Positions 704 through 22,826 of a stretch of DNA of 38,943 nucleotides are shown here, in pieces. Made by a program: the position numbers and the translations under genes. Source of the DNA: Paracoccaceae bacterium (GTDB lineage: Bacteria > Pseudomonadota > Alphaproteobacteria > Rhodobacterales > Rhodobacteraceae); NCBI GenBank assembly GCA_019090795.1, contig JAHRVG010000117.1:1-38943 (forward strand). Direction: 5' to 3'. The notes below the pieces were generated by a model. That model saw nothing but the letters and a program-made list of their open reading frames with translations. It did not search any database and was not told where the DNA came from. Every line of letters begins with the position of its first letter. Within the stretch, counting starts at the first letter, position 1.

Positions 704-717
704 TTGATGCCCGTCAA
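704..717. promoter_or_regulatory. Fnr/Dnr-type box upstream of the CydA-like operon
   Basis: TTGAT-GCCC-GTCAA matches the TTGAY-N4-RTCAA palindrome of Fnr-family regulators at every conserved position. It ends 63 bases before the GTG start at 781. That suits a class II position (box centred near -40), with AT-rich candidates for a -10 at about 735-749. Confidence 0.75.
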
Positions 718-780
718 TTACACGAATTTTCGATTATGTTCAGTTAAAAATCCGAAACGATGCGTATGAAGGGGTTAACT

Positions 781-906
781 GTGTCTGACAACAATGGAAA
801 CACACTGCTGGGCAAGCTGGTTTTTGCCGCAACTGCTGTGGCGATGGTGTATTTTTTCTGGTGGTTGCTGATCTATGACCACGGGGTCATTTCGGTTCAC
901 CACTAA
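781..906 (+). CDS. Micro-membrane protein (41 aa), possible accessory subunit of the CydA-like complex
   Basis: A short frame starts with GTG at 781, behind a strong ribosome site (AAGGGG ending 5 bases upstream). The peptide has a polar N-terminus, a single aromatic-rich transmembrane helix at about residues 12-31, and a His-rich tail (VHH). It is the first gene after the Fnr-type box and is followed 31 bases later by a second micro-membrane gene and then the CydA-like gene. Known cytochrome bd oxidases carry single-helix subunits (CydX, CydH), so a similar structural role is plausible but unproven. I see no sequence match to those families. Confidence 0.6.
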   Translation: MSDNNGNTLLGKLVFAATAVAMVYFFWWLLIYDHGVISVHH

Positions 907-937
907 ACGCGCAAAAGACAAAAGCAAGGACGGCAAA

Positions 938-1060
938 ATGGGAAAATACGTGGTATTTGTTGTGGCCATCGTGGGCTGGGCAGCCTTTTTCTATTTCATC
1001 GATAAATCAATCATGCAGGGGCAGGGTTTACCTGTCGGTGCTGATTTGATGCCGGTTTAA
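938..1060 (+). CDS. Second micro-membrane protein (40 aa)
   Basis: The frame starts at ATG 938 after an AAGGA ribosome site 6 bases upstream. Residues 4-20 are one hydrophobic helix, followed by a short polar tail ending DLMPV. The stop lies 12 bases before the CydA-like start. A longer reading from an ATG at 875 would overlap the previous micro-gene and lacks a ribosome site, so the short form is preferred. Its place in the operon suggests a small subunit or assembly factor of the membrane complex. No family was recognised. Confidence 0.6.
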   Translation: MGKYVVFVVAIVGWAAFFYFIDKSIMQGQGLPVGADLMPV

Positions 1061-1072
1061 GCGGAGATTGTT

Positions 1073-2830
1073 ATGAGACTGACCTATTTCATCGCTTTCT
1101 TTGCGACGCTGTTTGCGTTCGTAGTTCCCGAATTTGCCGCCGCCGCTGCTGATGTGGCCGAGGTTGTACTTGAAGGGGCGCCCAAGCCTTCCCGGATGGA
1201 CTATCCACTTATTGCAGGCATCAGTGCCCGCACCTTGGCCTGGAGCATGGCGCAGATGCACCTGTTTCTGGCGGCCTTTGTTCTGGCGGTGCCCCTGTTC
1301 GCGATTGCCACGGAATTCATGAGCGTTATCACCGGTGATGACCGCTTTGACAACATGGCGCGCGAGTTCATGAAGATCACCATGGCGGCCTATTCCCTGA
1401 CCGCGCTTGTGGGGGGGGGGTTGTTGCTCTCGTTACTGGTGTTTTACCCGCATTTGATGGGCTATCTGATCAAGGTTTTCCGCGGCCAAATGCTGATTTA
1501 CGCGGCCCTGTTTGGTCTCGAGTCCATCACGCTTTATATCTATTTCTACTCGTGGGATGCTCTGCGTCGGGGTAATCGCAAATACTATCACATGTCTATT
1601 GGCCTGTTGCTGAACACTGTTGGTCTGACGCTGATGTTTGTCGCCAACGCTTGGGCGTCTTTCATGATGTCACCGGCAGGCATTGCGCCCGATGGCGCGA
1701 TTACCGGCACGGTGTGGGAGGCAACTCGCAATCCGTTGTGGAACCCGCTGAACCTGCACCGTTTCCTGGCCAACATCGCTTACGGGGGTGCGATTGTGGG
1801 CGGATATGCTGCCTATATGTTCCTCTCGGAAAAAGACAAAAAGCTGAAAGAGCATTACGACTGGATGGGCTATACCTCCAACTTCATTGCAATCCTCGGT
1901 TTTATCCCGCTGCCCTTTGCCGGCTATTGGCTGATGGCCGAGATTTATGCCTATTCCCAGCAGATGGGGATCACCGCCATGGGTGGGATTTTGGCGTGGT
2001 TGTTTATCATTCAGGCTGTGCTGATCGGTACCATCATGCTGGCTGCGAATTATTATCTGTGGTCGGGCCTGATGCGCACGGATCGCGGCGCGCAATACAC
2101 AAAATACGTCAAATATATTGCGGTGGTGATTGTGGGCGGCTTCCTTGTCTGGGTGACACCGCACACGCTGATCCTGACCACCGACGAAATCCAGAACCTT
2201 GGCGGGACACATCATAAATTGCTAGGGCCGCTTGGGATTATGCCCGCGAAAAACACGGCGGTGAACCTGATGCTGGTGTTTACTTTCCTGTCTTTCCAGA
2301 TGTTCTATCGCTCGTCCCGTGTCCCTGTGGTGTCATGGGCAAAATCTGCCAATATGGTGATTGTCGCGCTTTACGTGGTGGGTATTGCTAATATCGTTGG
2401 CGCAGGGATTTACGGCTATATCACGCCAACAGTTTACAAGGTCGGGGCCTCGGTTCCCCAAGTTGTTACCACGCTGAGCATTATCATCGGTTCGGTGATC
2501 ATCGACGTGTTCATGCTACGCGGTGCCAAATCCGAAAAAGTCCATTGGGGCCGCATGACAGAACGTTCGCAATACGCGTTGTTTGTACTGCCGGTGGCCT
2601 TTACCTGGTTGATGGGTTTGATGGGGTATATTCGCTCCAGCCTGCGCACCAACTGGCATGTTTACACGGTCATGAAAGATAACTCCTCTGAGGCCTATAT
2701 TCCGACACTGGGCGATGCGGGGAACACCATCACCGGCATTACCTTGGCGTTTATGGCTGTTATGGTTTTTGTGTTCTGGCTTTCGCGGCTTGGGGCAACC
2801 AAGCAAAAAGGCACGGAGGGCGCGGTATGA
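1073..2830 (+). CDS. Cytochrome bd-like (CydA-superfamily) membrane subunit
   Basis: A multi-helix membrane protein of 585 aa with a signal-like first helix (1-25). The middle resembles CydA, subunit I of cytochrome bd. H63 sits where the high-spin heme ligand His19 of E. coli is expected. E150 in the ES...SWDAL stretch matches the Glu107 region, but the Glu99 equivalent appears to be a hydrophobic residue. H229 (LHRFLANIAYGG) matches the b558 ligand, and M400 may be its partner. The quinol-binding Q-loop of true quinol oxidases is not recognisable. No CydB gene is present. The ATG of the following cytochrome c gene overlaps its stop by four bases. CydA relatives without a quinol site are known and are thought to use other donors, so this is probably an oxygen (or NO) reductase or electron carrier fed by c-type cytochromes. 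Ligand assignments are by eye. The gene contains a run of ten G at 1411-1420. Confidence 0.75.
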   Translation: MRLTYFIAFFATLFAFVVPEFAAAAADVAEVVLEGAPKPSRMDYPLIAGISARTLAWSMAQMHLFLAAFVLAVPLFAIATEFMSVITGDDRFDNMAREFMKITMAAYSLTALVGGGLLLSLLVFYPHLMGYLIKVFRGQMLIYAALFGLESITLYIYFYSWDALRRGNRKYYHMSIGLLLNTVGLTLMFVANAWASFMMSPAGIAPDGAITGTVWEATRNPLWNPLNLHRFLANIAYGGAIVGGYAAYMFLSEKDKKLKEHYDWMGYTSNFIAILGFIPLPFAGYWLMAEIYAYSQQMGITAMGGILAWLFIIQAVLIGTIMLAANYYLWSGLMRTDRGAQYTKYVKYIAVVIVGGFLVWVTPHTLILTTDEIQNLGGTHHKLLGPLGIMPAKNTAVNLMLVFTFLSFQMFYRSSRVPVVSWAKSANMVIVALYVVGIANIVGAGIYGYITPTVYKVGASVPQVVTTLSIIIGSVIIDVFMLRGAKSEKVHWGRMTERSQYALFVLPVAFTWLMGLMGYIRSSLRTNWHVYTVMKDNSSEAYIPTLGDAGNTITGITLAFMAVMVFVFWLSRLGATKQKGTEGAV

Positions 2831-3960
2831 CTTTCCTGCGCGTTATGGGTTTCAGCATTGCGCTTTTGGCGTTTTATGCGATTTTTTCCAACTCTCTTCC
2901 GCAAGTGGAGCCTGACTTATCCGAACCTGTTGAGGTCTCGACCGACGGCCTCGATATGGATGGAATGATTGTATTGGGGGAGAAGCTGTTTTCGGGCAAA
3001 GGCACCTGTACGCTTTGCCACAACAATCTGGGCCGCGCGCCAGATACGCTGGAAATGGATCTGGCGGCCGCTTTTGCCGAGCGTCTGGCCGATCCCGGCT
3101 ATCAAGGTATCGCCGCTGGGGGAGAAGGGCCGGAAGCGGTCGAGACATACATTCGCGAGTCGTTGCAAGATCCGTCAGCCTATGTGGTTGCCGGTTTTGG
3201 CAAGAAGGGCACCAATGATAGGGAATCCCCGATGCCCATCGTTGACGGACCGCCGATTGAGCTGAGCAATGTTGAAATGAATGCAGTGATTGCGTTCTTG
3301 CAGGATCGCGCGTCAATGGACCCGACCGTGCCTTTACCAAGCGCGGAGGAGGCACCGAGCGAAGAGGAGCCTAGCGGCGAGGGTATGGTGGAAGCACCTG
3401 TCACCGATGCTTTGGCGGCAATTGGCAAGTTCAATTGCTCCGCCTGTCACGATCTGGATGGCAGCGGTGCTGATCTTGGGCCTGCCCTTGGGGGGATCGC
3501 CAACCGGATGAACCGTACTGCGCTTATGGGGGCTATTTTGGACCCGAATGCGGAAATTGCCGAAGGGTATGACGAGGGCCTGATGCCTGATGATCTGGGC
3601 GAGGAAATGCATGCGTCTGAATTGCTGTTGATTGTGGATTACCTGATGGCATTACCGGAACCCGAACCCTCTGATGAAAACGACGAGGAAGGCCCTGCCA
3701 CCAACGCGATTGATGCGCTGGATAACCATGGGTGTGGTGGTTGCCACGATCTCGATGGTTCCGAGGCCGAGCTTGGCCCCAAACTGAACGGCATTGCCAA
3801 CCGCATGAGCCGCGAAGAGCTCAAGGCGGCGATCCTTGATCCCAATGCGGTGATTTCCCAAGGGTTTGAAGCTGAACTGATGCCCGATGACTTTGCCGAT
3901 GATATTGTGGACAGCGAAATGACGCTGATCCTCGATTACCTGATGAACCTGCCGGAATAG
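2827..3960 (+). CDS. Membrane-anchored triheme cytochrome c
   Basis: 377 aa with one N-terminal helix (about 4-20) as membrane anchor and a periplasmic body. Three CxxCH motifs sit at C61-H65 (CTLCH), C204-H208 (CSACH) and C303-H307 (CGGCH). The second and third heme domains (about 195-278 and 294-377) are clear tandem copies sharing CHDLDGS, GIANRM, ILDPNA and LMPDD, each ending in a DYLM.LPE segment. The first domain is different. An acidic Glu/Ser/Pro linker (about 170-190) separates domains 1 and 2. Translation is coupled to the CydA-like gene by an ATGA overlap, which supports a role as direct electron partner or subunit of that complex. Confidence 0.85.
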   Translation: MTFLRVMGFSIALLAFYAIFSNSLPQVEPDLSEPVEVSTDGLDMDGMIVLGEKLFSGKGTCTLCHNNLGRAPDTLEMDLAAAFAERLADPGYQGIAAGGEGPEAVETYIRESLQDPSAYVVAGFGKKGTNDRESPMPIVDGPPIELSNVEMNAVIAFLQDRASMDPTVPLPSAEEAPSEEEPSGEGMVEAPVTDALAAIGKFNCSACHDLDGSGADLGPALGGIANRMNRTALMGAILDPNAEIAEGYDEGLMPDDLGEEMHASELLLIVDYLMALPEPEPSDENDEEGPATNAIDALDNHGCGGCHDLDGSEAELGPKLNGIANRMSREELKAAILDPNAVISQGFEAELMPDDFADDIVDSEMTLILDYLMNLPE

Positions 3961-3969
3961 GGAAAAACT

Positions 3970-6243
3970 ATGTCCATTCTTAAACATCCCCTGTTCCTAG
4001 CAATGCTCGTTCTGGGCGGGCTTTATGGGCTTTTTGCCCATGTGCTGAACCCGCCGCTGCCGCAATCCTTGTTGATCCAGTATATGGTGATCTGCTCGGT
4101 TGGTGTGCTGCTGGTTGTGACCTTTGACAATGCCACGGCCGCCAAATTTTTCAGCCCGCTGTTGGCGTTGTTTGGCGAACCTAAACTGATCCTGCTGCGC
4201 ATTGTAGCCTTTGCAGGTGTGGTTGCGGGTGTTGGCTTCCTGACATTCGAGAGCGTCAAACCAAACATCGTATCGCCTGTTGAGTTACGCACGGTTCACC
4301 CCGCACCGCCTTCCAGCATGAAGGCATATGGCAAGACATTCAACTTGTTGAAACTGGAAAACCCTTACCGCGCGGAATTTGACGAGCAATCAGATGAGTA
4401 CCAAGAGGTCGTCGCCGAAGGGGCTGAACTCTACTATAAAAACTGTATTTACTGTCATGGTGATCTACTGGACGGTACTGGCCATTTTGCCAAGGCGTTC
4501 ACCCCGCGCCCGATCAACTTTCAAGATGTCGGTATGATTGCACAGTTACAAGAGGCTTTCCTGTTCTGGCGCATCACCAAAGGTGGCCTTGGCCTGCCGC
4601 GCGAGGGCACACCTTGGGTTTCTGCCATGCCGGTCTGGGAGGAAATGCTTGAGGAAGACGAAGTCTGGAAAATCATTTCCTTCCTCTATGATTACACTGG
4701 GTTTGAGCCGCGCAGTTGGGAGCTGGAGGAAAAATCAGACGCGCCTGATCCCGAACCCGTTGATCCAAATGCGGAACTGGATTCAGATGCGATTGAAGCA
4801 ATCTACATGAAGCGCTGCTCGCAGTGCCACGGCGAGGATGGCGATGGGTTGGGGGTTGCTGGGGACCGGATGTACCCGGCACCGCGCGATTTCACCCTTG
4901 GCCTGTTCAAATATAAAACCACCAATGCGGATAGCGAATTCCCAACGGATGACGACTTTCGTCAAACCATTCGCGAAGGCCTGACTGGCACCGCGATGCC
5001 CGGTTGGAAATCACTGCTGAATGACAAGGAAATTGACGGCCTTATCTTGCTGATCAAGGAATTTGGCGGTTGGGACGAAGAAGAGCCCGAAGATTTGGGG
5101 CTAGAGCCAATCGACATGGCGTCAAAGCCTGCGGTCGTAACACCAGAGTTGCTGACACTAGGGCGTGAGCAGTTTTTGAAGGCCTGCAAGGAATGTCACG
5201 GCAATGAAGGGCGCGGCAATATCACGTCGGGCAAACGCCTCAAGGACGATTCTCAGGCACGTATTTGGCCCCGTAATTTGACCCGCCCTGAAACATGGCG
5301 TTGGACGGATGATGTGGATGAGGTGTTCCAACGTCTCAGCGCAGGTATTCCGGGTACACCAATGCCGGAACACTCTACCGCGATGAAGGCAGAAGACCGT
5401 TGGGCGATTGCCTATTACGTGATGACTTTGCGCGACAACACCACGCCTCTGAGCAAGGGTGATTCCGTGGTCCGTGCGGTACGGGTGGCGGGGGGGCTGC
5501 CAACCTCGCCCGGTGATCCGGCTTGGGATGTGGCCCCTGCGATGACGTTCTCGTTCTCGCCCAATGTGATCAAGGAGCCGCGCCTGTTTACGTCGCTTAA
5601 TGACATGGTAACAGTGCGGGCGTTGTATAACGACGACGATATTGCCATGCGGGTAGACGTGGATGATCGCACTTATTCGGTGCCGGGATCAGAGCTGGAA
5701 CGTCAGTATTACCTTGAGGACGTAGAGGCGACCCGTGATGCGATTGCGGTGCAGCTGCCTGCGGCCCTGTCTGGCACTTCCGAGAAGCCCTATTTCCGTC
5801 AGGGGGATCGCAAGAACCCTGTGAATATGTGGACATGGACCGCGCCCTCGGTAGAGCCTAAGCTGCCCCAGGTTGCGGTGATCAAGGATGCTACGGGGCA
5901 GGAGAAGGCCCCCAAGGCACGGGCGGATAGTTCCGCATTGATGGCGAATGGTGAATGGAAAGATGGCCGTTGGCAGGTCGTATTCAGGCGTGCGCTTGAA
6001 ACCGATGCGCCGGAGGATTTCCAGTTCTCCGAGGGGGTGTATACCCCCGTCGCATTTGCCAACTGGGATGGTGTGAACGGTGAAGAAGGCCTGCGCCAGA
6101 GCTTTACAGCCTGGTACTGGATTCTGCTGGAACCTACAGAAAACCCGACAAAAATAATGGGAATTGCGGCAGCGGCAGCGGCTTTGGCAGGATTGCTGTT
6201 CATCTTGATCGCATGGCGCGCGCGCCGACGTTTTAACGCATAA
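3970..6243 (+). CDS. Membrane triheme cytochrome c fused to a heme-b (ethylbenzene dehydrogenase gamma-like) domain
   Basis: 757 aa. The N-terminus has about three helices (5-25, 36-52, 73-93). Three cytochrome c domains follow with motifs at C159-H163 (CIYCH), C283-H287 (CSQCH) and C406-H410 (CKECH). Residues about 510-720 resemble the heme-binding gamma subunit of DMSO-reductase-family enzymes such as ethylbenzene dehydrogenase: WDVAP at the start, GDRKNPVNMWTW with M620 a possible axial ligand, and ANWDGVNGEEG near the end. A final helix (about 729-748) is followed by a basic tail. The gene starts 9 bases after the previous cytochrome gene, so the three form one electron-transfer unit. The fusion could pass electrons between periplasmic carriers and the CydA-like protein. 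The heme-b assignment is inferred from motif similarity. Confidence 0.8.
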   Translation: MSILKHPLFLAMLVLGGLYGLFAHVLNPPLPQSLLIQYMVICSVGVLLVVTFDNATAAKFFSPLLALFGEPKLILLRIVAFAGVVAGVGFLTFESVKPNIVSPVELRTVHPAPPSSMKAYGKTFNLLKLENPYRAEFDEQSDEYQEVVAEGAELYYKNCIYCHGDLLDGTGHFAKAFTPRPINFQDVGMIAQLQEAFLFWRITKGGLGLPREGTPWVSAMPVWEEMLEEDEVWKIISFLYDYTGFEPRSWELEEKSDAPDPEPVDPNAELDSDAIEAIYMKRCSQCHGEDGDGLGVAGDRMYPAPRDFTLGLFKYKTTNADSEFPTDDDFRQTIREGLTGTAMPGWKSLLNDKEIDGLILLIKEFGGWDEEEPEDLGLEPIDMASKPAVVTPELLTLGREQFLKACKECHGNEGRGNITSGKRLKDDSQARIWPRNLTRPETWRWTDDVDEVFQRLSAGIPGTPMPEHSTAMKAEDRWAIAYYVMTLRDNTTPLSKGDSVVRAVRVAGGLPTSPGDPAWDVAPAMTFSFSPNVIKEPRLFTSLNDMVTVRALYNDDDIAMRVDVDDRTYSVPGSELERQYYLEDVEATRDAIAVQLPAALSGTSEKPYFRQGDRKNPVNMWTWTAPSVEPKLPQVAVIKDATGQEKAPKARADSSALMANGEWKDGRWQVVFRRALETDAPEDFQFSEGVYTPVAFANWDGVNGEEGLRQSFTAWYWILLEPTENPTKIMGIAAAAAALAGLLFILIAWRARRRFNA

Positions 6244-6275
6244 AACTGCGGATTTTCTCAGGAAACCCCAAAATC

Positions 6276-6289
6276 TTGACGGGCGTCAA
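6276..6289. promoter_or_regulatory. Fnr/Dnr-type box upstream of the peroxidase-Rieske-molybdoenzyme operon
   Basis: TTGAC-GGGC-GTCAA is a perfect 5-bp inverted repeat. It lies 99 bases before the first start at 6389, leaving room for a promoter and a leader of roughly 65 bases. The box begins 32 bases after the stop of the preceding gene, so operon 2 probably has its own promoter. Confidence 0.78.
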
Positions 6290-6388: not shown

Positions 6389-7507
6389 ATGAAGATATCT
6401 CGACTGAAACGCGGTTCCGCGCTGACGCTGGGGGCGGCTTTGATGTCTGCCACAGTTCTGGCCGGGTCTGCTTTTGCAGGCGACGCAATTGGGCCGGTTG
6501 TGGCACCAGAGGTGAACGCCGCCAAGGCAGAGCTGGGTAAACGCCTGTTCTTTGACAAACGCCTGTCAGGGGACGCAGCGATTTCATGCTCCACCTGTCA
6601 CCAGCCGGAAAAAGGCTTTGCCGACGGCTTGCCTCTGTCTCTGGCCTATCCCGGTTCCAAAGGGTTTCGCAACACGCCAACCCTGATCAACACTGCTTTG
6701 TCAGCGAACTGGTTTCACGATGGTCGCATAGGCACCAACCTGAACGATGTGACCCGTGAGATGATCACCGAAGATTATCTGATGAACATGGACATGCGCA
6801 TGATGCAAGAGCGTGTGAAGCAGGATCCACTTTATGTGGAAATGTTTGCAGCTGCCGGTTACGGCGAGCCATCGAATGGTTCCATCCGTAAAGCGATCCC
6901 GGAGTATCTGGCAACCCTGATTTCCAAGAACTCACCTTTCGACACAGGCACTATGTCTGATGGCGCGAAGCGTGGTCAGGAATTGTTTGAAGGCAAAGCC
7001 GGTTGTATCGATTGCCACAGTGGTCCTCGGTTCACGGACGACAAAGCCCACAATATGGGCGTGCCGGAAAATCCTGAAATCTGGTCCGATCCCATGCGTC
7101 ATATGACATATGCGGCTTTCGCCCAGTTCATGGGTGTCGAGAACTACATGAACATCCGTCAGGACGTTGGTGCGCAGATCATTCGCAATCCGGTTGACCG
7201 CTCTGATGTTGCCAGCTTCACCACGCCGACGTTGCGTGAGCTGAAGTACACAGCACCTTACATGCACAATGGCATGTTCCCCAGCCTGTCCGACATTGTT
7301 GCCTTCTATAATACTGGCGGCGAACATGTTCCAAATCTGGACGAGAAGGTACGGCCCCTTAATCTGACATTCCTCGAGCAGCAGGATCTCGTACGTTTCT
7401 TGGAGGCTCTGTCCGGTGATCCGCTCACTGGCCCAGAATATGTCTGGGAAGGCACAATTTCAACCAACTACCCCGCCATTGAAAACTGGCGCGAGCAGAA
7501 AAACTAA
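6389..7507 (+). CDS. Diheme cytochrome c peroxidase/MauG-like protein, IdrP1/P2-like
   Basis: 372 aa from the ATG at 6389, which has a good ribosome site (AAAGGGA). A TTG further upstream has none. Residues 1-30 are a Sec signal peptide ending AFA. Heme motifs are C67-H71 (CSTCH) and C206-H210 (CIDCH). Family hallmarks include TPTLI, NWFHDGR and PYMHNGMF near the C-terminus. Such proteins reduce hydrogen peroxide or carry out high-valent heme chemistry in the periplasm. In iodate-reducing bacteria, two of them (IdrP1, IdrP2) accompany the molybdoenzyme and are thought to remove peroxide formed by it. The pairing with a second copy and with the Rieske and molybdoenzyme genes is the basis for the IdrP-like label. 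Confidence 0.85.
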   Translation: MKISRLKRGSALTLGAALMSATVLAGSAFAGDAIGPVVAPEVNAAKAELGKRLFFDKRLSGDAAISCSTCHQPEKGFADGLPLSLAYPGSKGFRNTPTLINTALSANWFHDGRIGTNLNDVTREMITEDYLMNMDMRMMQERVKQDPLYVEMFAAAGYGEPSNGSIRKAIPEYLATLISKNSPFDTGTMSDGAKRGQELFEGKAGCIDCHSGPRFTDDKAHNMGVPENPEIWSDPMRHMTYAAFAQFMGVENYMNIRQDVGAQIIRNPVDRSDVASFTTPTLRELKYTAPYMHNGMFPSLSDIVAFYNTGGEHVPNLDEKVRPLNLTFLEQQDLVRFLEALSGDPLTGPEYVWEGTISTNYPAIENWREQKN

Positions 7508-8673: not shown

Positions 8674-8693
8674 GCACACGGAAAGGAATGAAA

Positions 8694-15198: not shown

Positions 15199-16031
15199 AA
15201 ACAGCATTTGCAGCCGCAATAAGCGCAATGGTTTTAGGGGCAGGAGCGTATGCGTTTCTTGCCCCTAACGCACCTGAGGGCATGATGCAGGTACCAGGCG
15301 GTTCAGCGGTGCTGGGGTATGTCTATTACACTGGTCTCTATGGGCCGATGTCCTATCATGTGGATGGGTTTTGGATCGACACATTTGAAGTCACTAATAC
15401 GCAGTATTCTGACTTTGTGGCGCAAACCGGTCACGCGTCGGCAGCTTTTCATGACGATGAAGAATTCAATATCGCGGATCAACCGGTGACAGGCGTTTTG
15501 TGGGACGATGCTGTGGCCTTTTGTTCTTGGGCGGGAAAACGTCTGCCTACGGAAATCGAATGGGAAAAGGCTGCGCGGGGTACGCAAGGCCAGATTTACC
15601 CTTGGGGTGCAGAGGCAGATTTCAGCCTAGCACATCTTGAGGGAACGGTACCTGTTTCGGTGAACAGTTTTGGGGCCGACATCAGCCCCTACGGGGTGCG
15701 CGGTATGGCGGGAAATGTGTCGGAATGGGTTTCCGACACACGCGAGGTTCGGGCGGGAATGTGTCATGACACCCATGAAATTCCACGAAACATTCCGCAG
15801 GAAATGCGCGATATTTTGGCGGAACTGAAGGCTGCCAATGGCGGAAAGCTGCCGGAATTATGTGTGTCGCCGGATGAAGTTGACCACTCGATACCTGCCG
15901 AGCCTTGTGCCTTTATCAAGGGCAATAGCTGGAATGGACGGCCCCATATGACGGTCGCCAGCAATCGAATGTGGGACTATACTAATTCCTATGCGGAATT
16001 TGTCGGGTTCCGCTGTGCAAAAAACAACTGA
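15183..16031 (+). CDS. FGE/SUMF1-superfamily protein, NirV-like, without catalytic cysteines
   Basis: About 282 aa. The start is uncertain: TTG at 15183 is the only start that keeps the N-terminal hydrophobic helix (about 5-28), and it overlaps the micro-gene upstream. The body has the formylglycine-generating-enzyme fold: MMQVPGGS, WIDTFEVTNTQY, RLPTEIEWEKAARG, YPWG, GMAGNVSEWVSD and the ending VGFRCA. The cysteine pair that true FGE uses near the C-terminus is absent: the KGNSW to R region has no Cys. An insert of about 60 residues with three cysteines (C194, C228, C244) precedes it. NirV, found next to copper nitrite reductase genes, belongs to this superfamily. Here it follows a cupredoxin gene, suggesting a role in maturing or supporting the periplasmic redox protein rather than sulfatase activation. 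Confidence 0.7.
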   Translation: MVIQLKTAFAAAISAMVLGAGAYAFLAPNAPEGMMQVPGGSAVLGYVYYTGLYGPMSYHVDGFWIDTFEVTNTQYSDFVAQTGHASAAFHDDEEFNIADQPVTGVLWDDAVAFCSWAGKRLPTEIEWEKAARGTQGQIYPWGAEADFSLAHLEGTVPVSVNSFGADISPYGVRGMAGNVSEWVSDTREVRAGMCHDTHEIPRNIPQEMRDILAELKAANGGKLPELCVSPDEVDHSIPAEPCAFIKGNSWNGRPHMTVASNRMWDYTNSYAEFVGFRCAKNN

Positions 16032-16041
16032 AGGGGAAAAC

Positions 16042-17682
16042 ATGGTTGTTAATTTGGCAATTGATGAGGGTACAGACCGTTCTGTGGGAACCGCACCTGT
16101 GTCTTTAAGGCGTATTCTGGTGGCGTTGGATCAGTCTGACTATGCCAATAACGCGATGAAACAGGCCACGCGTCTGTGCGGTGGTCAAATCACCGGCATT
16201 CACGCCTATGCGGCTAAACTGCATGATCGCCGTTTTAAGCAGATGGAAGGCGGTCTGCCGGAAAAATACCAGCGCGAGAGCGAGATGGAGCATCAGCGCG
16301 AGGTGCATGAAGATCTGATCGGCATGGGGCTGGGGCTGATTTCCGACAGCTATCATGATGCGGCAGCCAGAGTTGCCCAAAAGGCCAATATCCCCTTTGA
16401 TCGGCTTTCCCCTGAAGGCAAGAACTATGCCTGTTTGCTGGAGGCGATGAACAAGGGCGACCATGATGTTTTGTTCATCGGGGCCCTTGGTTTGGGGGCG
16501 GTTGCCGGCTCCACCATTGGCACGGTTTGCGAACGGGTTGCGCGGCGCGCGAATATTGATGTGTTTATCGCCAAAGACCGCCGACTGGCCATTGGCGATG
16601 GGCCAATTGTGGTGGGCATGGATGGATCACCCAAATCATTCGGCGCGCTGCTGACAGCGATTGATATTGCCAAACGGGTGGCGGCCCCGGTGCATGTGGT
16701 TGCCGCATATGATCCTTTCTATCATTATGTTGCCTTTAACAAAATTTCGACCGTTCTGGACGAAGAGGCAGGCAAGGTTTTCCGCTTTAAAGAACAAGAA
16801 CAACTGCACGAAGAGCTGATCGACGAGGGCATTGCCAAAATCTATCAGGCGCATCTGAACGTTGCCGAAACCGTTGCCAAAGACGCCGGTGTTGAGGTGG
16901 TTTGTGAGTTGGTAGCAGGCAAGCCTTATCAGGCGATTAAGAAATACGTGGAAAAACACAAGGCCAGCCTGTTGATGGTTGGTAAAACCGGCGTCCATGC
17001 CGACGATGGTCTGGATATTGGTGGCAACACTGAAAACCTGCTGCGCATGGTGCCCTGCCATATGTGGATCGGCATGGTTGAACATTTCCCGCCCTCTGAT
17101 GTGGTGGCCGAGGAAACGATTATGTGGTCGGATGAGGCCTCCGAGATGATCAACCGTGCACCTGAATTTGTGCGCGGCATTGCCCGTACCGGTGTGATCC
17201 GGCAAGCGCAAAAAGAGGGGCATACCTTTATCACCACTCGTTTTGTACAGGAAGTAATGTCCAAAATGATGCCCGGTGGTGGCGGTAGTAAGGAAGCGGC
17301 TCAGCAAAGTTTTGAGCGGCTGGAATGGGCAGATGATGCGCGCGCGATGCTGGAAGGGATCGCGGATGAACAGGTGCGCGAAAACATCGGATTGCGCGCT
17401 GAAAAATCAGCACGCCGTGATGCCAGCAACACGGTACAAACTGCCCACGTAGAGCCCTTCATGGCTGAGGCCGCGCTTGAACCTGCAAGCCGCGATGAAA
17501 TCACATGGCGCGCGGCGTCACTTGCGCGATTACAACGGGTGCCAGAGGCTTTTCGTGGGCAAGTGAAATCCGCGATTGAAAACTTTGCTCGGGATCGGGG
17601 TTTGTCTGTGGTTGATGGCGAGATTGAAGATGAAGCCTTTGCTGCCTCGCGCATGGCCATGTGTCCGGTGGACGAGGGTTAA
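16042..17682 (+). CDS. Double universal-stress-protein domain fused to three PCP_red-like domains
   Basis: 546 aa from ATG 16042, which has AAGGGG 5 bases upstream. Two Usp domains lie at about 23-180 (RRILVALDQSD) and 187-345 (IVVGMDGSP, LLMVGKTG). The C-terminal third holds three repeats of about 47 residues beginning at W362, W429 and W489 (WSDEASEMI, WADDARAML, WRAASLARL). Each has an E/A-rich helix, a P/D-E-x-V/F-R turn and a second basic helix. They resemble the PCP_red domain at the end of the protochlorophyllide reductase subunit BchB/ChlB, which covers the tetrapyrrole substrate. A cytoplasmic, tetrapyrrole- or nucleotide-binding regulatory or chaperone role is inferred. The next gene ends in the same domain. 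Confidence 0.75.
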   Translation: MVVNLAIDEGTDRSVGTAPVSLRRILVALDQSDYANNAMKQATRLCGGQITGIHAYAAKLHDRRFKQMEGGLPEKYQRESEMEHQREVHEDLIGMGLGLISDSYHDAAARVAQKANIPFDRLSPEGKNYACLLEAMNKGDHDVLFIGALGLGAVAGSTIGTVCERVARRANIDVFIAKDRRLAIGDGPIVVGMDGSPKSFGALLTAIDIAKRVAAPVHVVAAYDPFYHYVAFNKISTVLDEEAGKVFRFKEQEQLHEELIDEGIAKIYQAHLNVAETVAKDAGVEVVCELVAGKPYQAIKKYVEKHKASLLMVGKTGVHADDGLDIGGNTENLLRMVPCHMWIGMVEHFPPSDVVAEETIMWSDEASEMINRAPEFVRGIARTGVIRQAQKEGHTFITTRFVQEVMSKMMPGGGGSKEAAQQSFERLEWADDARAMLEGIADEQVRENIGLRAEKSARRDASNTVQTAHVEPFMAEAALEPASRDEITWRAASLARLQRVPEAFRGQVKSAIENFARDRGLSVVDGEIEDEAFAASRMAMCPVDEG

Positions 17683-17683
17683 C

Positions 17684-18955
17684 ATGGCAGATGCGCCCTA
17701 TCTGATTGCCCTGAATCTAACCGAACGCTGTAATCTGGCCTGCGACCATTGTTACCTTGACGCCAAGCACCTCAGCGAGGGGGGCAGTGATGAGCTGGGC
17801 ACTGCAGACCTGAAGCGCGTCATCGGTGAAATTGCCGAAGTCGGGCCAGAGGCGATGGTGGTACTAACCGGAGGGGAGCCAACCTTGCGCCCTGATTTGC
17901 CAGAGCTTGCAACCCATGCCAGCGCCCTCGGGTTGATGGTTGTGGTTGGCACAAACGGCATGTCGCTAACGCCTGCACGGATTAAAACCTTGCAACACTC
18001 TGGTGTGTCGGGTGTCGGTATTTCGATTGATTCCCTGAACCCTGATGTCCACGATGATTTCAGGGGCCGCAAAGGTGCGTGGCTGAAAACCATGCAGGGC
18101 ATTGATGCCTGCAAAGATGCCGGAATGCCGTTTCAAATCCATTTTTCCGCGACGGATAATACGGCGGACGAAATCGACGATATGGTGGGTTTTGCACGAG
18201 ATGCGGGCGCGATGGTTTTGAACGTGTTCTTTATGGTTTGCACCGGGCGGGGTGAGAAATACTCAGGTATTTCGGCGGAAAAGTATGATCGCGTATTGCG
18301 CCGTGTCGCCGTGGCGGCAAAACGTGAACAACGCCTGATGGTTCGGGCGAAGTGTGCGCCCCACTTTAAGCGGATCGCGATTGAGATGGACCCCGATTGG
18401 CCAATCACCGCTGCTCATGGTTATGACGCAGGGGGCTGTATCGCCGCCACCCGCTATGCACGGGTAACGCCAAACGGGGATGTAACACCTTGCCCTTACA
18501 TGGAGAATTCTGCCGGATCGGTGAACACGCAATCGTTTGCAGAAATCTGGAATGATGCACCTGTCTTGAATGCCTTGCGTGCGCCTAAACTCGAAGGCCG
18601 TTGTGGTGCATGCGAGTTCCAGAAATTATGCGGCGGCTGCCGTGCCCGCCCTTTGGCCTTGGATGGCAACATGATGGGCGAGGATAGCCTGTGCACGTAT
18701 CAACCTCAAGGCGGGGCTATTATTATGCCGATGATGCCTGCCGGTGGTGCAATGAAATGGGACGAGGATGCCGAGATTCATATCGCGCGCGTGCCGGGAT
18801 TCGTGCGCTCAATGGTGCGTCGCCGTGCCGAGGATTATGTGCGCGGCGAGGGCCGCTCTGAGGTGACAAAAGCAGACCTGACCTTGCTGGCCAAACGCCG
18901 TTTTGGCGATAATGGCCCGCCTGCGTTCATCAAAAACATGCGGAGGCCCAAGTGA
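17684..18955 (+). CDS. NirJ/AhbD-like radical SAM-SPASM enzyme with a C-terminal PCP_red-like domain
   Basis: 423 aa from ATG 17684, one base after the previous stop. The radical SAM motif is C16-x3-C20-x2-C23 (CNLACDHCY) and GGEP lies at 63-66. CAPHF (C224) and the SPASM cysteines C252, C270, C307, C310, C316, C319 and C337, with CGGCRAR, match the heme-biosynthesis branch containing NirJ (heme d1) and AhbD (siroheme-route heme synthase). Residues about 357-405 form a PCP_red-like domain (WDEDAEIHI, PGFVR, RAEDYVRGEG). It probably modifies side chains of a heme or porphyrin. No other heme d1 genes (nirS, nirF, nirDLGH) are seen, so a different modified heme or a peptide substrate remains possible. 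Confidence 0.78.
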   Translation: MADAPYLIALNLTERCNLACDHCYLDAKHLSEGGSDELGTADLKRVIGEIAEVGPEAMVVLTGGEPTLRPDLPELATHASALGLMVVVGTNGMSLTPARIKTLQHSGVSGVGISIDSLNPDVHDDFRGRKGAWLKTMQGIDACKDAGMPFQIHFSATDNTADEIDDMVGFARDAGAMVLNVFFMVCTGRGEKYSGISAEKYDRVLRRVAVAAKREQRLMVRAKCAPHFKRIAIEMDPDWPITAAHGYDAGGCIAATRYARVTPNGDVTPCPYMENSAGSVNTQSFAEIWNDAPVLNALRAPKLEGRCGACEFQKLCGGCRARPLALDGNMMGEDSLCTYQPQGGAIIMPMMPAGGAMKWDEDAEIHIARVPGFVRSMVRRRAEDYVRGEGRSEVTKADLTLLAKRRFGDNGPPAFIKNMRRPK

Positions 18956-20337
18956 CGCATGATGTGATTGTCATCGGGGGCGGGGTTTCCGGGCTGGCAA
19001 CAGCGCAGGCGCTGATGGCGCGGGGTCATGATGTGGCGGTTCTGGAACGACAGGTGATTGCCGGTGGCAATGCGATTTCAGAGCGTTTCGACGGCTTTTT
19101 AATGGAACACGGGCCTACGACATTCAACGCCTCGGTGCCCGAAGCAGTCGCGCATATTGCGGGGCTTGGATTGCTTGAAAGCGCCAGCGACCTTGGCCCC
19201 AATGTCAAGCGCCGCTATTTACGGGATCAGGGCAGGTTGACGGGTGTTTCTGCCCATCCGCTGGGCTTTTTCCGCTCGAACTACCTGTCCCCGATCGGGC
19301 GTCTTTCGATGCTGTTTGAGGGTTTTCGCCCGCGCAAGAAAACCGATGCCGAAGAAACCATCCACGCCTTTACCAGCCGCCGTTTTGGCCGGGAATTCGC
19401 TGACAAGGTGATTGATCCGATGGCGGCGGGGCTGTTTATGGGGGATTCGCATCAGCTGTCGATCAACGGTGCTTTTGCGCGATTGGCGTTGATGGAACAG
19501 GAACATGGCTCCATTACCCGCGGAATCTTAAAGGCCAAACGAGGAAGCGAGCCGGGGCGGCATTTGTATTCATGGCAAGGGGGTATTGGCACCATTCCGC
19601 AAGTTTTGGGACAGTGTCTAGGAACACGGGTACACACCGGAATCACCGTTTTAAAACTGTGCAAAACAGCCAATGGGTTTGAGTTGCACACCAGTGCCGG
19701 AATTCGCCAAACCCGTGCTGTCGTGCTGGCGGTGCAGCCGCATGTGGCAGCGGGGTTGCTTGAAAACCTTGATAGTGAAGCGGCCAGTGCTGCGGGTGAA
19801 ATTGCGGCCCCCCCCGTCAATGTGGTGTATCTCGGTTATCGGCGGGATCAGGTCACGCATCCACTGGACGGGTTGGGATTTTTATCCACCAAAGACAGAA
19901 ACCGGATCATTTCTGGCGCGCAGTTTTGTTCTACCATGTACGCAGGCCGTGCGCCCGATGGTTTTGTGTCGATTTCTGCCTACGCGGGTGGGGTGCGCAA
20001 TCCGGAACTGGCGCAGATGTCAGAGGTTGATCTGGTGGCGCAGGTGCAGGTTGAGCTGGCGGATTTACTGGGCATAAAGGGCGCACCGGTGTTGCAGCGC
20101 CTCCGCCGTTGGGCACTGGGATTGCCGCAATATACCCTTGGCCATACGGCGCGGGCGGCCATTCTGCAAACCACATCACAGCGCAATTCTGGTTTGTTTG
20201 TCACCGGAAATTTCCTGCAAGGGGTCTCTGTTGCAAATTGTCTGAGCACCGCGGTTCAAACGGCCAATGATATAGACCGCAGCCTTAATCATGGCCCTGA
20301 AATTCGTTGTTTTCAACATCAACAACATACTGCATAA
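18952..20337 (+). CDS. HemY-like FAD-dependent protoporphyrinogen/coproporphyrinogen oxidase
   Basis: 461 aa. It starts at a GTG that overlaps the previous stop (GTGA), with GGAGG about 5 bases upstream. The N-terminal FAD-binding motif is VIVIGGGVSGLATA, followed by an acidic residue in VAVLERQ. Further features shared with HemY/PPOX are the EHGPTTFN segment, the FADKVIDPMAAGLFMGD segment and the final LFVTGNFLQGVSV motif. The enzyme would oxidise a porphyrinogen, or a related tetrapyrrole, to the aromatic ring. Most alphaproteobacteria use HemJ for this step. A HemY-like gene tied by overlap to a NirJ/AhbD-like gene suggests a dedicated tetrapyrrole branch. The last roughly 20 residues (after TANDI) look unconserved. 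Confidence 0.82.
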   Translation: MTHDVIVIGGGVSGLATAQALMARGHDVAVLERQVIAGGNAISERFDGFLMEHGPTTFNASVPEAVAHIAGLGLLESASDLGPNVKRRYLRDQGRLTGVSAHPLGFFRSNYLSPIGRLSMLFEGFRPRKKTDAEETIHAFTSRRFGREFADKVIDPMAAGLFMGDSHQLSINGAFARLALMEQEHGSITRGILKAKRGSEPGRHLYSWQGGIGTIPQVLGQCLGTRVHTGITVLKLCKTANGFELHTSAGIRQTRAVVLAVQPHVAAGLLENLDSEAASAAGEIAAPPVNVVYLGYRRDQVTHPLDGLGFLSTKDRNRIISGAQFCSTMYAGRAPDGFVSISAYAGGVRNPELAQMSEVDLVAQVQVELADLLGIKGAPVLQRLRRWALGLPQYTLGHTARAAILQTTSQRNSGLFVTGNFLQGVSVANCLSTAVQTANDIDRSLNHGPEIRCFQHQQHTA

Positions 20338-20372
20338 TCGGTTGTCAGAAACAATCCAGAGCATGAACCTCC

Positions 20373-20849
20373 ATGACCGACCAAGCGCATTTCTCTTCTC
20401 TTATGTCCATCGAACCTGAATGGATTGATTACAACGGCCACCTAAATATGGCGTATTACAATGTGCTTTTTGATCGCGGGCTTGATGAAATCTGGACAAA
20501 AATTGGATTTGGCCCCGATTATGCAGCAAACAGTGGTTTTACCACCTATTCCGCCGAGTGCCATATTCGCTATTTACGCGAAGTCCATCAAGGCGATCAG
20601 GTTCGCGTGCGCTTTCACCTGCTGGATTACGATGAAAAGCGCCTGCATCTTTATCAAGAACTGATCCACTCTGATGGCTGGATTTCTGCTACGGCTGAGG
20701 GCCTGAGCCTGCATATTGATATGTCTGGGCCCCGTGTTGCCCCAATGCCTGCGGATATCCTCGCAAACGTGCGCGCCATTGCGCAAAAACATGCTGCCCT
20801 GCCCAAGCCTGCGAATATTGGCCGCCCCATCGGGATTCGCCGCAAGTAA
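20373..20849 (+). CDS. Hotdog-fold acyl-CoA thioesterase, possibly betainyl-CoA type
   Basis: 158 aa, close to the usual length of 4HBT thioesterases. The N-terminal EWIDYNGHLNMAYYNVLFDR segment carries the catalytic Asp-Tyr-Asn-Gly-His pattern. The closest remembered relatives are thioesterases of carnitine/betaine catabolism (betainyl-CoA thioesterase), with YSAECHIRYLREV following. It begins 35 bases after the HemY-like gene, with only a weak ribosome site, and faces the MoeA gene tail to tail. Whether it belongs to the upstream operon is unclear. The substrate is inferred. A link to the methylated-amine genes 12 kb away is tempting but unsupported. Confidence 0.72.
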   Translation: MTDQAHFSSLMSIEPEWIDYNGHLNMAYYNVLFDRGLDEIWTKIGFGPDYAANSGFTTYSAECHIRYLREVHQGDQVRVRFHLLDYDEKRLHLYQELIHSDGWISATAEGLSLHIDMSGPRVAPMPADILANVRAIAQKHAALPKPANIGRPIGIRRK

Positions 20850-20855
20850 CCTTGG

Positions 20856-22100
20856 CTAAAACGGGATGAACTCCAGAAGATCATCCTTGGCGATCTCTGC
20901 TACATTGGCCGGAATAACGGCCAACCCGTCGGCCAGCGATAGCAGTGCTACGCGTCCCGAAAAGCTGCTGTCGAGCAATTCTAACTGCTGCCCACCTTCA
21001 ACGTATCGTGCGGGGCGGAATTCGCAGCGGCCAGCATGTCGGCTGGTAGCCGCGCTGGCGCGTACCAGAATGCGGGATTGCGGCGTTTTTTCCAGCCCAG
21101 CACGTTTTTCCAGAATGCGCGCGCCAATAATCATCCAGGTAACAAAAGCCGACACCGGATTGCCCGGAAGGCCTATGAATATGGCCTTGCCTAGCGTGCC
21201 AAAAGTGATCGGTTTTCCCGGTTTGATAGCAACTTTCATAACCGACAATTTGCCGCCCAACTGTTCAAACAGACGCGGCATGTGATCTTCATCACCCACA
21301 GAAACACCGCCAGTGGTGATTACCATGTCGCAGGTGTTGCAGGCGTTTTCCAGTGCTGCGCCCAGTTGTTCTGGATCGTCTGGAATAGCGCCGAAATCAA
21401 TGATTTCAACCCAGTCCTTTTTCAGCGACGACAGCAGGGTATAGCGGTTTGAGTTCCAGATCTGGCCAGTTTCCAGCGGCTCTCCGGGCTGGCGTAATTC
21501 ACTGCCGGTGGAAAAGACGGCAACACGCAGATTGCGGCGTACCGGAACACGCCCCATTCCCACGGCCGCCAATGCGCCCGCTTGTCGGGGGCCGATCTCG
21601 ACATTTGCGGCAACCACGACCTGCCCCTTGGCCGCATCCCCTCCAAGGCTGCGGATATGTTGGCCCGGTTTAGGGCGGCGGCTGAAATGGATTGCGCCGT
21701 CGCGCAATTCGGTGTCTTCTTGCATGATCACCGCGTCAAAACCCGTGGGCACAATCGCGCCGGTCAGGATGCGCAGGGCAGTTCCCGCCTGCGGTGTGAC
21801 CTTGCCCGCATCCCCGGCGGCAATGCGCCCGCGAACCGCAAGCGACCACGGGCCATTGCCGGTTAAATCGCGGGTGCACAACAGATAGCCATCCATCGCA
21901 GAGTTATCAAACGGGGGCAGGGGCAGGGGAGAGATTGCGTCATGTGCCAGAACACGGCCCATGGAGTCGATCAGAGAGACAACCTCGATTTCCGCCACCG
22001 GACTGGCCAGTGCAAGGCCGCGTTCAATGGCGGTTTCCAGCGGGATCAGCTTGTCGTGTGGATTGTCGCAGCACCCCGCGTTGTCGGGCCCGGCGTTCAT
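20856..22100 (-). CDS. moeA: Molybdopterin molybdotransferase MoeA
   Basis: 414 aa from the ATG at 22100, which overlaps the stop of the upstream nitroreductase gene (ATGA) and has GGAAAGGGG before it. Characteristic stretches are PLPPFDNSAMDGY, DELRQPGEPL-type STGSEL, NSNRY, TTGGVSVGDED, KPGKPITFG and GLPGNPVSAF. MoeA inserts molybdate into adenylylated molybdopterin in the cytoplasm to complete the cofactor needed by enzymes such as the IdrA-like protein upstream. It is the second gene of an operon preceded by an Fnr-type box, so cofactor completion is probably induced together with the molybdoenzyme. It may be a second copy; the genome outside is unseen. Confidence 0.9.
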   Translation of the reverse strand: MNAGPDNAGCCDNPHDKLIPLETAIERGLALASPVAEIEVVSLIDSMGRVLAHDAISPLPLPPFDNSAMDGYLLCTRDLTGNGPWSLAVRGRIAAGDAGKVTPQAGTALRILTGAIVPTGFDAVIMQEDTELRDGAIHFSRRPKPGQHIRSLGGDAAKGQVVVAANVEIGPRQAGALAAVGMGRVPVRRNLRVAVFSTGSELRQPGEPLETGQIWNSNRYTLLSSLKKDWVEIIDFGAIPDDPEQLGAALENACNTCDMVITTGGVSVGDEDHMPRLFEQLGGKLSVMKVAIKPGKPITFGTLGKAIFIGLPGNPVSAFVTWMIIGARILEKRAGLEKTPQSRILVRASAATSRHAGRCEFRPARYVEGGQQLELLDSSFSGRVALLSLADGLAVIPANVAEIAKDDLLEFIPF

Positions 22101-22738
22101 GGCTGGCCCCTTTCCAGGGTGCCGTTCCATTGGGTCAGCAAGGATTGTGGATTTGCGCGTTCGCGGCGTTTGGGGGCAGCCGATGGTGTGCCGATGGTGA
22201 TGAAACACAAGAAGGTCTCGTTTTCCGCTAACCCGAGGGCCGCGCGGAAACTGGCGGTGCGTACCGCCTGCCCACTGAGCGCGCGGGCACCAAACCCCAT
22301 GGCGTGAACCGCCAACAAGACATTTTGCAATGCTGCCCCGCCAGAGGCGAGTTGATCGTCCCGATGCGGGACAGGTCCGTCAAGGTTCAGGCACAATACC
22401 AGCCCCAGCAAAACAGGCGCGCGGCTGGCTTTTTCGCGCGCGCGTGCCAGTGCTTCGTCGTCCGCATCAGGCAGACGCTCTTTCAGGGCCGCCTCGAATA
22501 CGTCGGCAAGGGCGGTTCGGCTGGAGAGCGGGAATTCAATAAATCGCCATGGCTGCAGTTTGCCGTGATCCGGTGCCGCGGCTGCGGCAGCCATCAATTG
22601 GGTGATCTGTGCGGGTGTTGGCCCAGGTGCTGCCAGACGTTTTGGCGAAACCGAGTGGCGGCTGAGGATTGTTTCCAGCACGGTATTTTCGGCGCTGTCG
22701 AAAGCAGTACCTGCTTGCGATTTAAACACTTTGTTCAT
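22097..22738 (-). CDS. Nitroreductase-family flavoprotein
   Basis: 213 aa from the ATG ending at 22738 (GAGGGG lies about 10 bases upstream). An in-frame ATG at 22759 is an alternative. The N-terminal SRHSVSPKRL segment and the LMAAAAAAPDHGKLQPWRFIEF stretch (broken here as SPKRL, AAPDHGKLQPW) carry the FMN-phosphate contacts of nitroreductases of the YdjA type. GGAALQNVLLAVHAMGFG is the usual dimer-interface helix. It would reduce a small organic or flavin-linked substrate with NAD(P)H. It shares an operon and a box with moeA. Why a nitroreductase is co-regulated with cofactor synthesis is not clear from sequence. Confidence 0.82.
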   Translation of the reverse strand: MNKVFKSQAGTAFDSAENTVLETILSRHSVSPKRLAAPGPTPAQITQLMAAAAAAPDHGKLQPWRFIEFPLSSRTALADVFEAALKERLPDADDEALARAREKASRAPVLLGLVLCLNLDGPVPHRDDQLASGGAALQNVLLAVHAMGFGARALSGQAVRTASFRAALGLAENETFLCFITIGTPSAAPKRRERANPQSLLTQWNGTLERGQP

Positions 22739-22812
22739 TGATTTCTGGCCCCTCTTCATTCCAACACGCTTTGGCGCTCGGGCCTTTATCGGCATTGTGG
22801 GGGGGCAGTTCC

Positions 22813-22826
22813 GTGACACAGATCAA
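22813..22826. promoter_or_regulatory. Fnr/Dnr-type box upstream of nitroreductase-moeA
   Basis: On the minus strand this reads TTGAT-CTGT-GTCAC, one mismatch from TTGAY-N4-RTCAA. It lies 74 bases upstream of the minus-strand start at 22738, a similar distance to the other three boxes in the locus. Confidence 0.62.

Follow-up and report, generated by a model that had tools for sequence, protein, structure and literature searches.

The described systems closest to the locus reported here are the idrABP1P2 island of iodate reductase genes (Pseudomonas SCT, Denitromonas IR-12, Azoarcus DN11 and Roseovarius azorensis) and the 14-helix, cytochrome bd-like complexes of the OR-N family and TO_1 (Nitrospina, Nitrospira and Manganitrophaceae). 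In the parts of the cited papers that were available, here and below, the genes around idrABP1P2 are called poorly conserved (Denitromonas paper, PMC8692401). Iodate reduction, mainly in static culture, has been shown for three marine alphaproteobacteria that carry idr genes; the R. azorensis idr genes are induced by static growth plus iodate, and washed R. azorensis cells show no iodate reduction under air (PMC11445184). The bd-like oxidases of Nitrospina, Nitrospira and Kuenenia have 14 helices, keep the N-terminal heme ligands, lack the quinol site and are called enigmatic (N. gracilis paper, PMC3578206), and the OR-N family is described as likely fed by cytochrome c, which is unproven (PMC10839748; PMC12342949). 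Manganese oxidizers have a TO_1 complex with a periplasmic cytochrome b (PMC9040806), and Nitrospira marina has seven bd-like genes and raises four UspA proteins at low O2 beside co-raised operons (PMC8115632). Here, we describe an island that holds both an iodate-reductase module and a bd-like complex, in a window (the whole stretch of DNA analyzed, 38,943 bases) that is one whole contig (JAHRVG010000117.1) of the 3.6-Mb draft genome of a marine Paracoccaceae bacterium.

By assigning gene families with Pfam and NCBIfam profile scans of the window proteins, we found that operon 2 shares all four genes of the idrABP1P2 island, in the order P-P-B-A, and that these are accompanied in the window by genes for a bd-like complex and a HEAT protein, by a tetrapyrrole block and by Fnr boxes. 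The original prediction had given operon 2 the idrABP1P2 content and had listed a CydA-like gene, tri-heme cytochromes, a cupredoxin and NirV-like, radical SAM and HemY genes in operons 1 and 3; the scans agree (two PF03150 diheme proteins, TIGR02694 and TIGR02693 in operon 2), and the cupredoxin is recognized by its invariant residues. The genes of the bd-like module (operon 1) and of the iodate-reductase (Idr) module and its neighbors are:
781 to 906, plus strand: single-transmembrane microprotein a, 41 amino acids, putative small subunit of the bd-like complex; homologs 37-82% identical
938 to 1060, plus strand: single-transmembrane microprotein b, 40 amino acids, with a motif like FxxxDxxIMxxQGLPL by eye
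1073 to 2830, plus strand: bd-like membrane subunit, 585 amino acids (PF01654; AlphaFold2 model)
2827 to 3960, plus strand: tri-heme cytochrome c (PF00034; three CxxCH in the translation)
3970 to 6243, plus strand: tri-heme cytochrome c fused to an EB_dh (heme b) domain (PF13442, PF09459)
6389 to 7507, plus strand: IdrP-type diheme protein 1 of the MauG/CCP family (PF03150)
7522 to 8673, plus strand: IdrP-type diheme protein 2 of the MauG/CCP family (PF03150)
8670 to 9275, plus strand: IdrB-type Rieske subunit with a Tat-like signal, SRRNFLIG, by eye (TIGR02694 above cut-off)
9288 to 11966, plus strand: IdrA-type molybdopterin subunit (TIGR02693 above cut-off; IdrA tree)
12120 to 14306, plus strand: HEAT-repeat protein (PF13646), linked to idrA also without the bd-like gene
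20856 to 22208, minus strand: MoeA-type molybdenum cofactor enzyme (PF03453/PF00994/PF03454)
22097 to 22738, minus strand: nitroreductase-family protein (PF00881)
22908 to 25238, minus strand: PAS histidine kinase with a receiver domain, linked to Idr (family scan)
25259 to 26020, plus strand: OmpR-type response regulator, partner of the kinase (family scan; neighbor comparison)

The union of the bd-like complex with iodate-reductase genes, plus the cofactor block, appears to be new. Among the papers listed, and in the text available, searches of the open-access literature showed none that links iodate or the idr genes to cytochrome bd, to HEAT or to heme biosynthesis, and none that links bd-like proteins to radical SAM, Usp or HemY. 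The original claim of an undescribed respiratory system survives for this union and for the block, and not for the bd-like protein, whose type is already known from the similar 14-helix bd-like/OR-N proteins of Nitrospina and Nitrospira, themselves of unproven function. We tentatively read the locus as a low-oxygen respiratory island in which c cytochromes would serve both an uncharacterized bd-like terminal complex and an iodate reductase, the tetrapyrrole genes serving the former; we put this reading at a little short of an even chance.

The two modules are joined non-randomly. We counted them in a class sample of 289 genomes and a family sample of 345, the window's own genome being included in both, with Fisher and permutation (Mantel) values that ignore shared ancestry. 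In the class sample, the bd-like gene is strong in 10 genomes (an eleventh match is weak, at 25% identity) and IdrA is matched in 12, of which 11 are idr-type (at least 56% identity); seven genomes share both (Fisher 1e-9). In the family sample, IdrA matches occur in 40 genomes, and we counted the 20 with at least 45% identity, the rest being arsenite-oxidase-like matches at 31-34%; all seven genomes with the bd-like gene fall within these 20 (Fisher 7e-10). The co-occurrence of the CydA-like and IdrA-like genes, which the original prediction had proposed as a check and whose absence it had named as refuting, is thus seen in both samples, far above chance.

In addition, an alignment scan of genome contigs with the bd-like protein gave at least 564 relatives, from which the best 80 loci were kept and 50 genomes were drawn, mainly for useful flank length, and searched whole; this sample is skewed toward close relatives of the window protein. 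Among the matches listed, the records nearest by the bd-like gene include the titles Aliiroseovarius, Roseovarius and Marinosulfonomonas. IdrA is present in 36 of the 50 genomes, on the bd-like contig in 26 of them (gaps of about 2.8-27 kb) and on another contig of the draft in the remaining 10. The 14 genomes without IdrA include Mariprofundus, Gallionellales and Nitrospinae records, and some of these drafts may be incomplete. Both genes are found together in alpha- and gammaproteobacterial genomes and in genomes titled Deltaproteobacteria and Nitrospirae.

The gene order differs among these loci: cyd-idr-HEAT-usp in the window type, a divergent (hemY rSAM usp cupredoxin HEAT)/(cyd idr) order in gammaproteobacterial loci, and idr-HEAT-cupredoxin-cydA2-cydA-usp where there are two paralogs. 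IdrA and bd-like distances are also correlated (r 0.51 over 39 genomes, reached in 0 of 2000 permutations). These results bear on whether two independent mobile respiratory cassettes simply pile up in the same islands with no functional contact. Such hitch-hiking would fit the patchy distribution of both modules, each of which is found alone, but the linkage recurs with differing gene orders in alpha- and gammaproteobacterial loci, the distances correlate, and Fnr boxes are common to both modules in close relatives; we consider it quite unlikely. At the other extreme, a single indivisible four-operon system is ruled out because the modules separate in relatives. Hence, of the one joint system originally proposed, co-occurrence above chance stands and indivisibility does not.

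The strong linkage would also be expected if the bd-like complex consumed a product of iodate reduction (hypoiodous acid, iodine or derived O2) as a detoxifying or energy-saving last step. In the available text, published models end in hypoiodous acid with peroxide/O2 by-products and an unnamed terminal oxygen reductase (PMC8692401), which suits this idea. However, such a substrate has no direct evidence, and 13 of the 20 idr genomes of the family manage without the bd-like complex, so that we regard a product consumer as improbable.

To place the window IdrA, we built a tree of 65 rows in which bd-like genomes are over-represented through the choice of sample; no genome search stands behind the labels of its Vibrio, Azonexus and Thiothrix rows. 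The window IdrA groups with idr-type homologs, none of which is a named characterized IdrA, apart from AioA; of the three AioA rows, two make up the sister side, and the remaining one (L061) is misplaced on a very long branch. A plain arsenite oxidase is disfavored by this separation. A clade of 13 rows, each belonging to the window's class, lacks the bd-like gene and is nested among rows that have it, and this nesting suggests that the bd-like gene was lost once there. A group that holds the plasmid clusters of Azonexus and Thiothrix stands apart in the tree, with c-type cytochromes, moaA and a sigma-54 regulator as neighbors; in the Azonexus cluster (IdrA 50% identical), one c-type cytochrome gene, moaA and the sigma-54 regulator gene take the place of the additions seen in the window. 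A scan of viral sequences with IdrA gave no match. Separately, the 1.7-Mb plasmid of Vibrio sp. THAF190c (L252) carries an idr cluster with an IdrA 65% identical to that of the window, and the bd-like gene is not within 12 kb of that cluster.

The window enzyme could in principle run in reverse, oxidizing an arsenite-like or reduced iodine substrate and passing electrons through c cytochromes to O2 at the bd-like complex, much as nitrite oxidizers may do. The best characterized IdrA relatives are arsenite oxidases, and among the genomes that have both IdrA and the bd-like gene are records with the titles Sedimenticola and Thiodiazotropha, which are sulfur oxidizers. In addition, bd-like, NxrC and cupredoxin-like genes accompany nitrite oxidoreductase in the available account of N. 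gracilis (PMC3578206). The Fnr-type boxes and the position of IdrA apart from AioA argue against this direction, as do the marine alphaproteobacteria with idr that reduce iodate, one of them induced by iodate (PMC11445184, as available), and we hold reversal to be highly unlikely. In the low-oxygen respiratory reading that we favor, the window IdrA would reduce iodate.

The HEAT gene and the two-component genes could be assigned by loci that have idr without the bd-like gene. In the clade with 73-76% identical IdrA and no bd-like gene, HEAT comes after idrA in all eight loci fetched; it does so in three more genomes, from the class sample, with IdrA and no bd-like gene, and in 0 of 3 more distant IdrA loci. 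Where the bd-like gene is missing, the HEAT matches show just 29-37% identity and may include other HEAT proteins. The kinase/regulator pair is near idrP in 7 of 11 fetched family loci with IdrA and no bd-like gene. Hence, as neighbors of Idr where the bd-like gene is missing, both were assigned to the Idr module, an assignment that applies to this part of the tree. The kinase and regulator genes (22908 to 26020) were overlooked by the original prediction. A PAS kinase and OmpR-type regulator lie beside idr both with and without the bd-like gene (L232, L233, L235, L236, L239-L241), and they are a candidate iodate-sensing pair.

Between the HEAT gene and moeA lie the cupredoxin-like and FGE/NirV-like genes and the tetrapyrrole (cofactor) block of Usp, radical SAM and HemY genes:
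14333 to 15073, plus strand: cupredoxin-like periplasmic protein; H135, C178, H181 and M184 invariant in 54 sequences
15183 to 16031, plus strand: FGE/NirV-like protein (PF03781), a variable member seen in few loci
15991 to 17682, plus strand: tandem Usp domains plus PCP_red domains (PF00582, PF08369), marker of the block
17684 to 18955, plus strand: SPASM radical SAM protein, a NirJ/AhbD relative, plus PCP_red (TIGR04055; cysteines)
18952 to 20337, plus strand: HemY-type (proto/coproporphyrinogen) oxidase (TIGR00562)

The Pfam copper families gave no match for the cupredoxin-like protein. HemY scores 242.4 bits with TIGR00562, above the cut-off of 97.85. The genome also carries HemJ, which we take to be a porphyrinogen oxidase; hence, HemY is a second one. 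The best NCBIfam relatives of the radical SAM protein are NirJ2 (300.9 bits, TIGR04055) and AhbD (282.4 bits), and its CxxxCxxC and further cysteines are invariant in 42 sequences, so the cluster cysteines of NirJ/AhbD are kept. Unlike NirJ and AhbD, the window protein falls far below the equivalog cut-offs of 500, has a C-terminal PCP_red domain and is linked to a bd-like complex. The window's own genome holds two more distant radical SAM relatives, 32% and 30% identical. PCP_red, known from protochlorophyllide reductase, is fused here both to Usp and to the radical SAM protein (15991 to 18955), and no chlorophyll family was matched among the other window proteins in the scans made.

We used the Usp gene as the marker of the block, the sole member searched genome by genome, the radical SAM and HemY genes being seen as neighbors that adjoin usp in many of the loci read. 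Of the 50 bd-like genomes, 49 have the marker, and so do 13 of the 14 among them that lack IdrA. It is also present in all six other genomes of the family that carry the bd-like gene, and the nine Usp genomes of the class sample all fall among the 10 with the bd-like gene. For 10 of the 49 positive genomes, the match stops near residue 430, before the C-terminal PCP_red stretch. A search of the Nitrospirae class of G336 found the marker in 4 of the 10 genomes reached, a small sample. A special heme for Idr or HEAT is ruled out, as the marker was found in none of the 13 family genomes and none of the four class-sample genomes that have IdrA without the bd-like gene.

By gene content, then, the tetrapyrrole block goes with the bd-like complex. 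Since Usp tracks the bd-like gene and is absent where IdrA is alone, the special-heme idea belongs to the bd-like complex; the block of the original prediction is kept, and its tie to iodate reduction is dropped. We infer that the bd-like complex obtains an unusual tetrapyrrole from the block, which would either make or deliver it.

The bd-like protein belongs to the bd superfamily as judged by profile and predicted fold. The AlphaFold2 model (39 sequences, mean predicted local distance difference test score 77) has 14 long helices beyond an N-terminal helix, and we found no long Q-loop-type loop between helices in it. Foldseek gave ten matches to the model with expectation values up to 0.001, all of them cytochrome bd entries. 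In a profile alignment, H63, E150 and H229, invariant in 39 sequences, align to His19, Glu107 and His186 of Escherichia coli bd-II (7ose); for these and for Glu99 and Glu445 we assume the roles usually given to the bd-II residues. CydA has nine helices. Compared with canonical CydAB, the window thus shares the superfamily and these three conserved positions but has five more helices than CydA, no Q-loop, a tyrosine in place of Glu99, and no CydB family among the window proteins scanned.

The likeness to 14-helix/OR-N CydA and TO_1 extends to partial CydA similarity, 14 helices and the missing quinol loop, and c cytochromes and a periplasmic heme b domain are likewise present in the window; it is drawn from the available published description of helices and loop. 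Unlike the OR-N systems, the window joins its bd-like gene to IdrA instead of nitrite oxidoreductase and adds the Usp/radical SAM/HemY block. It also differs from paired OR-N paralogs (CydAA') in that a search of the genome found one bd-like gene and no long paralog. Such a second bd-like paralog, of ~720 amino acids and beside cupredoxin and c cytochromes, occurs in relatives (L038:3336-5480, L049:15409-17580, L042:15385-17562); we found it in 20 of the 50 genomes, 18 of these with IdrA.

The two microprotein genes (781 to 906 and 938 to 1060) were also overlooked by the original prediction. In 83 of 89 loci, the bd-like gene is preceded by a hydrophobic open reading frame of 28-90 amino acids, a count made without a shuffle control. 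By eye, several of these small frames share an FxxxDxxIMxxQGLPL-like motif; of the two microproteins, one has this sequence type and one an FFWWLLIY-like sequence. The conserved microproteins are probably small subunits of bd-like complexes.

The structure also bears on a membrane electron wire, in which the bd-like complex would connect the quinone pool or another membrane donor with the periplasmic cytochromes that feed IdrAB. Such a wire would give iodate reduction a membrane link of its own, which is missing from the classical idr cluster, there being no quinone oxidoreductase in that cluster according to the available text (PMC8692401), and the persistence of the idr linkage despite rearrangement agrees with it. 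Likewise, in the available text, Nitrospina, Nitrospira and the anaerobe Kuenenia have bd-like genes within their clusters for nitrite oxidoreductase, and a role like that of alternative complex III has been proposed for them; the same source reports that these relatives lack the quinol-binding residues (PMC3578206), which, with the loop missing from our model, speaks against a quinone connection. So do the 14 bd-like genomes without IdrA, 13 of them keeping the Usp marker, although some drafts may be incomplete. We judge the wire unlikely.

The elements of the window that concern control by oxygen are:
1 to 175, minus strand: Fnr-family regulator, N-terminal part (first ~58 codons), truncated by the contig end
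704 to 717, no strand: Fnr/FixK box 1 (TTGATGCCCGTCAA), exact, 63 bases before the start at 781
6276 to 6289, no strand: Fnr/FixK box 2 (TTGACGGGCGTCAA), exact, 99 bases before the start at 6389
12052 to 12065, no strand: Fnr/FixK box 3 (TTGACATGGGTCAA), exact, 54 bases before the start at 12120
22813 to 22826, no strand: imperfect Fnr box 4 (GTGACACAGATCAA), one mismatch, 74 bases before the start at 22738 (minus strand)

We found four exact copies of TTGAN6TCAA in the window against 0.76 expected, a number matched in 0 of 100 shuffles; the fourth, at 11346, is inside idrA. Sites with at most one mismatch number 18 against 17.6 expected, no excess over chance. Hence, box 4 is not significant by itself, and the claim of Fnr boxes before four operons holds exactly for operons 1-3 and fails to rise above chance for the fourth. 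An exact box does precede the nitroreductase gene in the near relative G341 and in L139. The Fnr-family gene placed at the edge by the original prediction is present and is partial because the window ends where the contig ends. Full-length orthologs are divergent from operon 1 in the five relatives read (L090, L092, L093, L094 and L243) and have four cysteines and an ETVSR recognition helix, which we take to be the FNR-type signature; the truncated window gene holds the N-terminal cysteines only.

Conservation of the boxes was surveyed in homologous loci, the window included, as exact sites within 250 bases upstream, with upstream ends taken at alignment starts and expectations from 60 mononucleotide shuffles per region. 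The survey dropped loci L17x and L18x, which are repeats, and passed over repeated regions and any shorter than 150 bases. Boxes are found upstream of microprotein gene a in 13 of 15 loci (0.07 expected), of the idrP gene that comes first in 16 of 57 (0.2), of the HEAT gene in 7 of 59 (0.13), of usp in 10 of 49 (0.12) and of the nitroreductase gene in 2 of 3 (0). As controls, exact boxes precede the histidine kinase gene in 0 of 21 loci and the response regulator gene in 0 of 15. The boxes are real and conserved near the window, and most distant loci have no exact box.

Taken together under the low-oxygen respiratory reading, a fall in oxygen would let Fnr/FixK-type control switch on both modules, with the two-component system joining in for idr. 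The first module would be a 14-helix, OR-N-like bd-like complex that has microproteins as subunits and works with the tri-heme c/EB_dh cytochromes. Periplasmic cytochrome c is its probable electron donor and O2 its probable substrate, and the Usp-PCP_red, radical SAM-PCP_red and HemY block would build or fit its tetrapyrrole. The second would comprise periplasmic IdrAB and IdrP1P2, the HEAT protein, MoeA and the two-component system. Shared cytochromes or the cupredoxin could then pass electrons to O2 through the bd-like complex and, as oxygen dwindles, to iodate through IdrAB, and the bd-like complex may hold O2 low around an oxygen-sensitive Idr.

Several points weigh against this reading. 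Fnr control is not general across loci: the exact box is absent upstream of 41 of 57 idrP and 52 of 59 HEAT genes, and the operon-1 box could be assessed in 15 loci only, mostly close relatives. Directly before the bd-like gene, none of 92 loci showed an exact box within 250 bases, which is no promoter test because microprotein genes often intervene. As to the protein, the whole-chain fit to bd structures is loose (template modeling scores of 0.38-0.46 by query, root-mean-square deviations of 12-19 Å), an invariant Tyr143 stands at Glu99 of E. coli bd-II in the profile alignment, and the equivalent of Glu445 is apparently lost, the C-terminal alignment scoring just 0.4 bits. Idr does not need the bd-like complex, since 13 of 20 family IdrA genomes lack its gene, and a plain parallel acceptor does not obviously explain a linkage kept through changes of gene order. 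Finally, in the literature consulted, as available, no activity has been demonstrated for any bacterial OR-N complex, and a related gene whose function is called enigmatic is present in Kuenenia, a strict anaerobe (PMC3578206), which weakens a role with O2 only.

A closer union of the modules would be one iodine-respiring machine, in which a bd-like complex with a modified heme exchanges electrons directly with IdrAB through the tri-heme/EB_dh cytochromes, conserving energy or consuming hypoiodous acid. Its heme would come from a new pathway of HemY and the NirJ/AhbD-like radical SAM protein, with PCP_red domains as tetrapyrrole carriers. As a joint reading, we think this rather unlikely.

Beyond the island, the window carries sarcosine-oxidase-like, flavin adenine dinucleotide oxidoreductase and MTTB (trimethylamine methyltransferase) genes at 32905 to 38877, perhaps a methylated-amine stretch unrelated to it.

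For the membrane wiring of iodate respiration, where the published cluster has no dedicated quinone oxidoreductase in the text available (PMC8692401), the island offers a candidate membrane partner for IdrA. For the 14-helix complexes, proposed terminal oxidases of nitrite and manganese oxidizers, it adds a genetic partner, the Usp/radical-SAM/HemY block, whose Usp marker accompanies the bd-like gene in nearly every genome drawn (49/50). The heme and the substrate of bd-like complexes may thereby become open to genetics in Rhodobacterales, which are likely easier to grow than most hosts of such genes.

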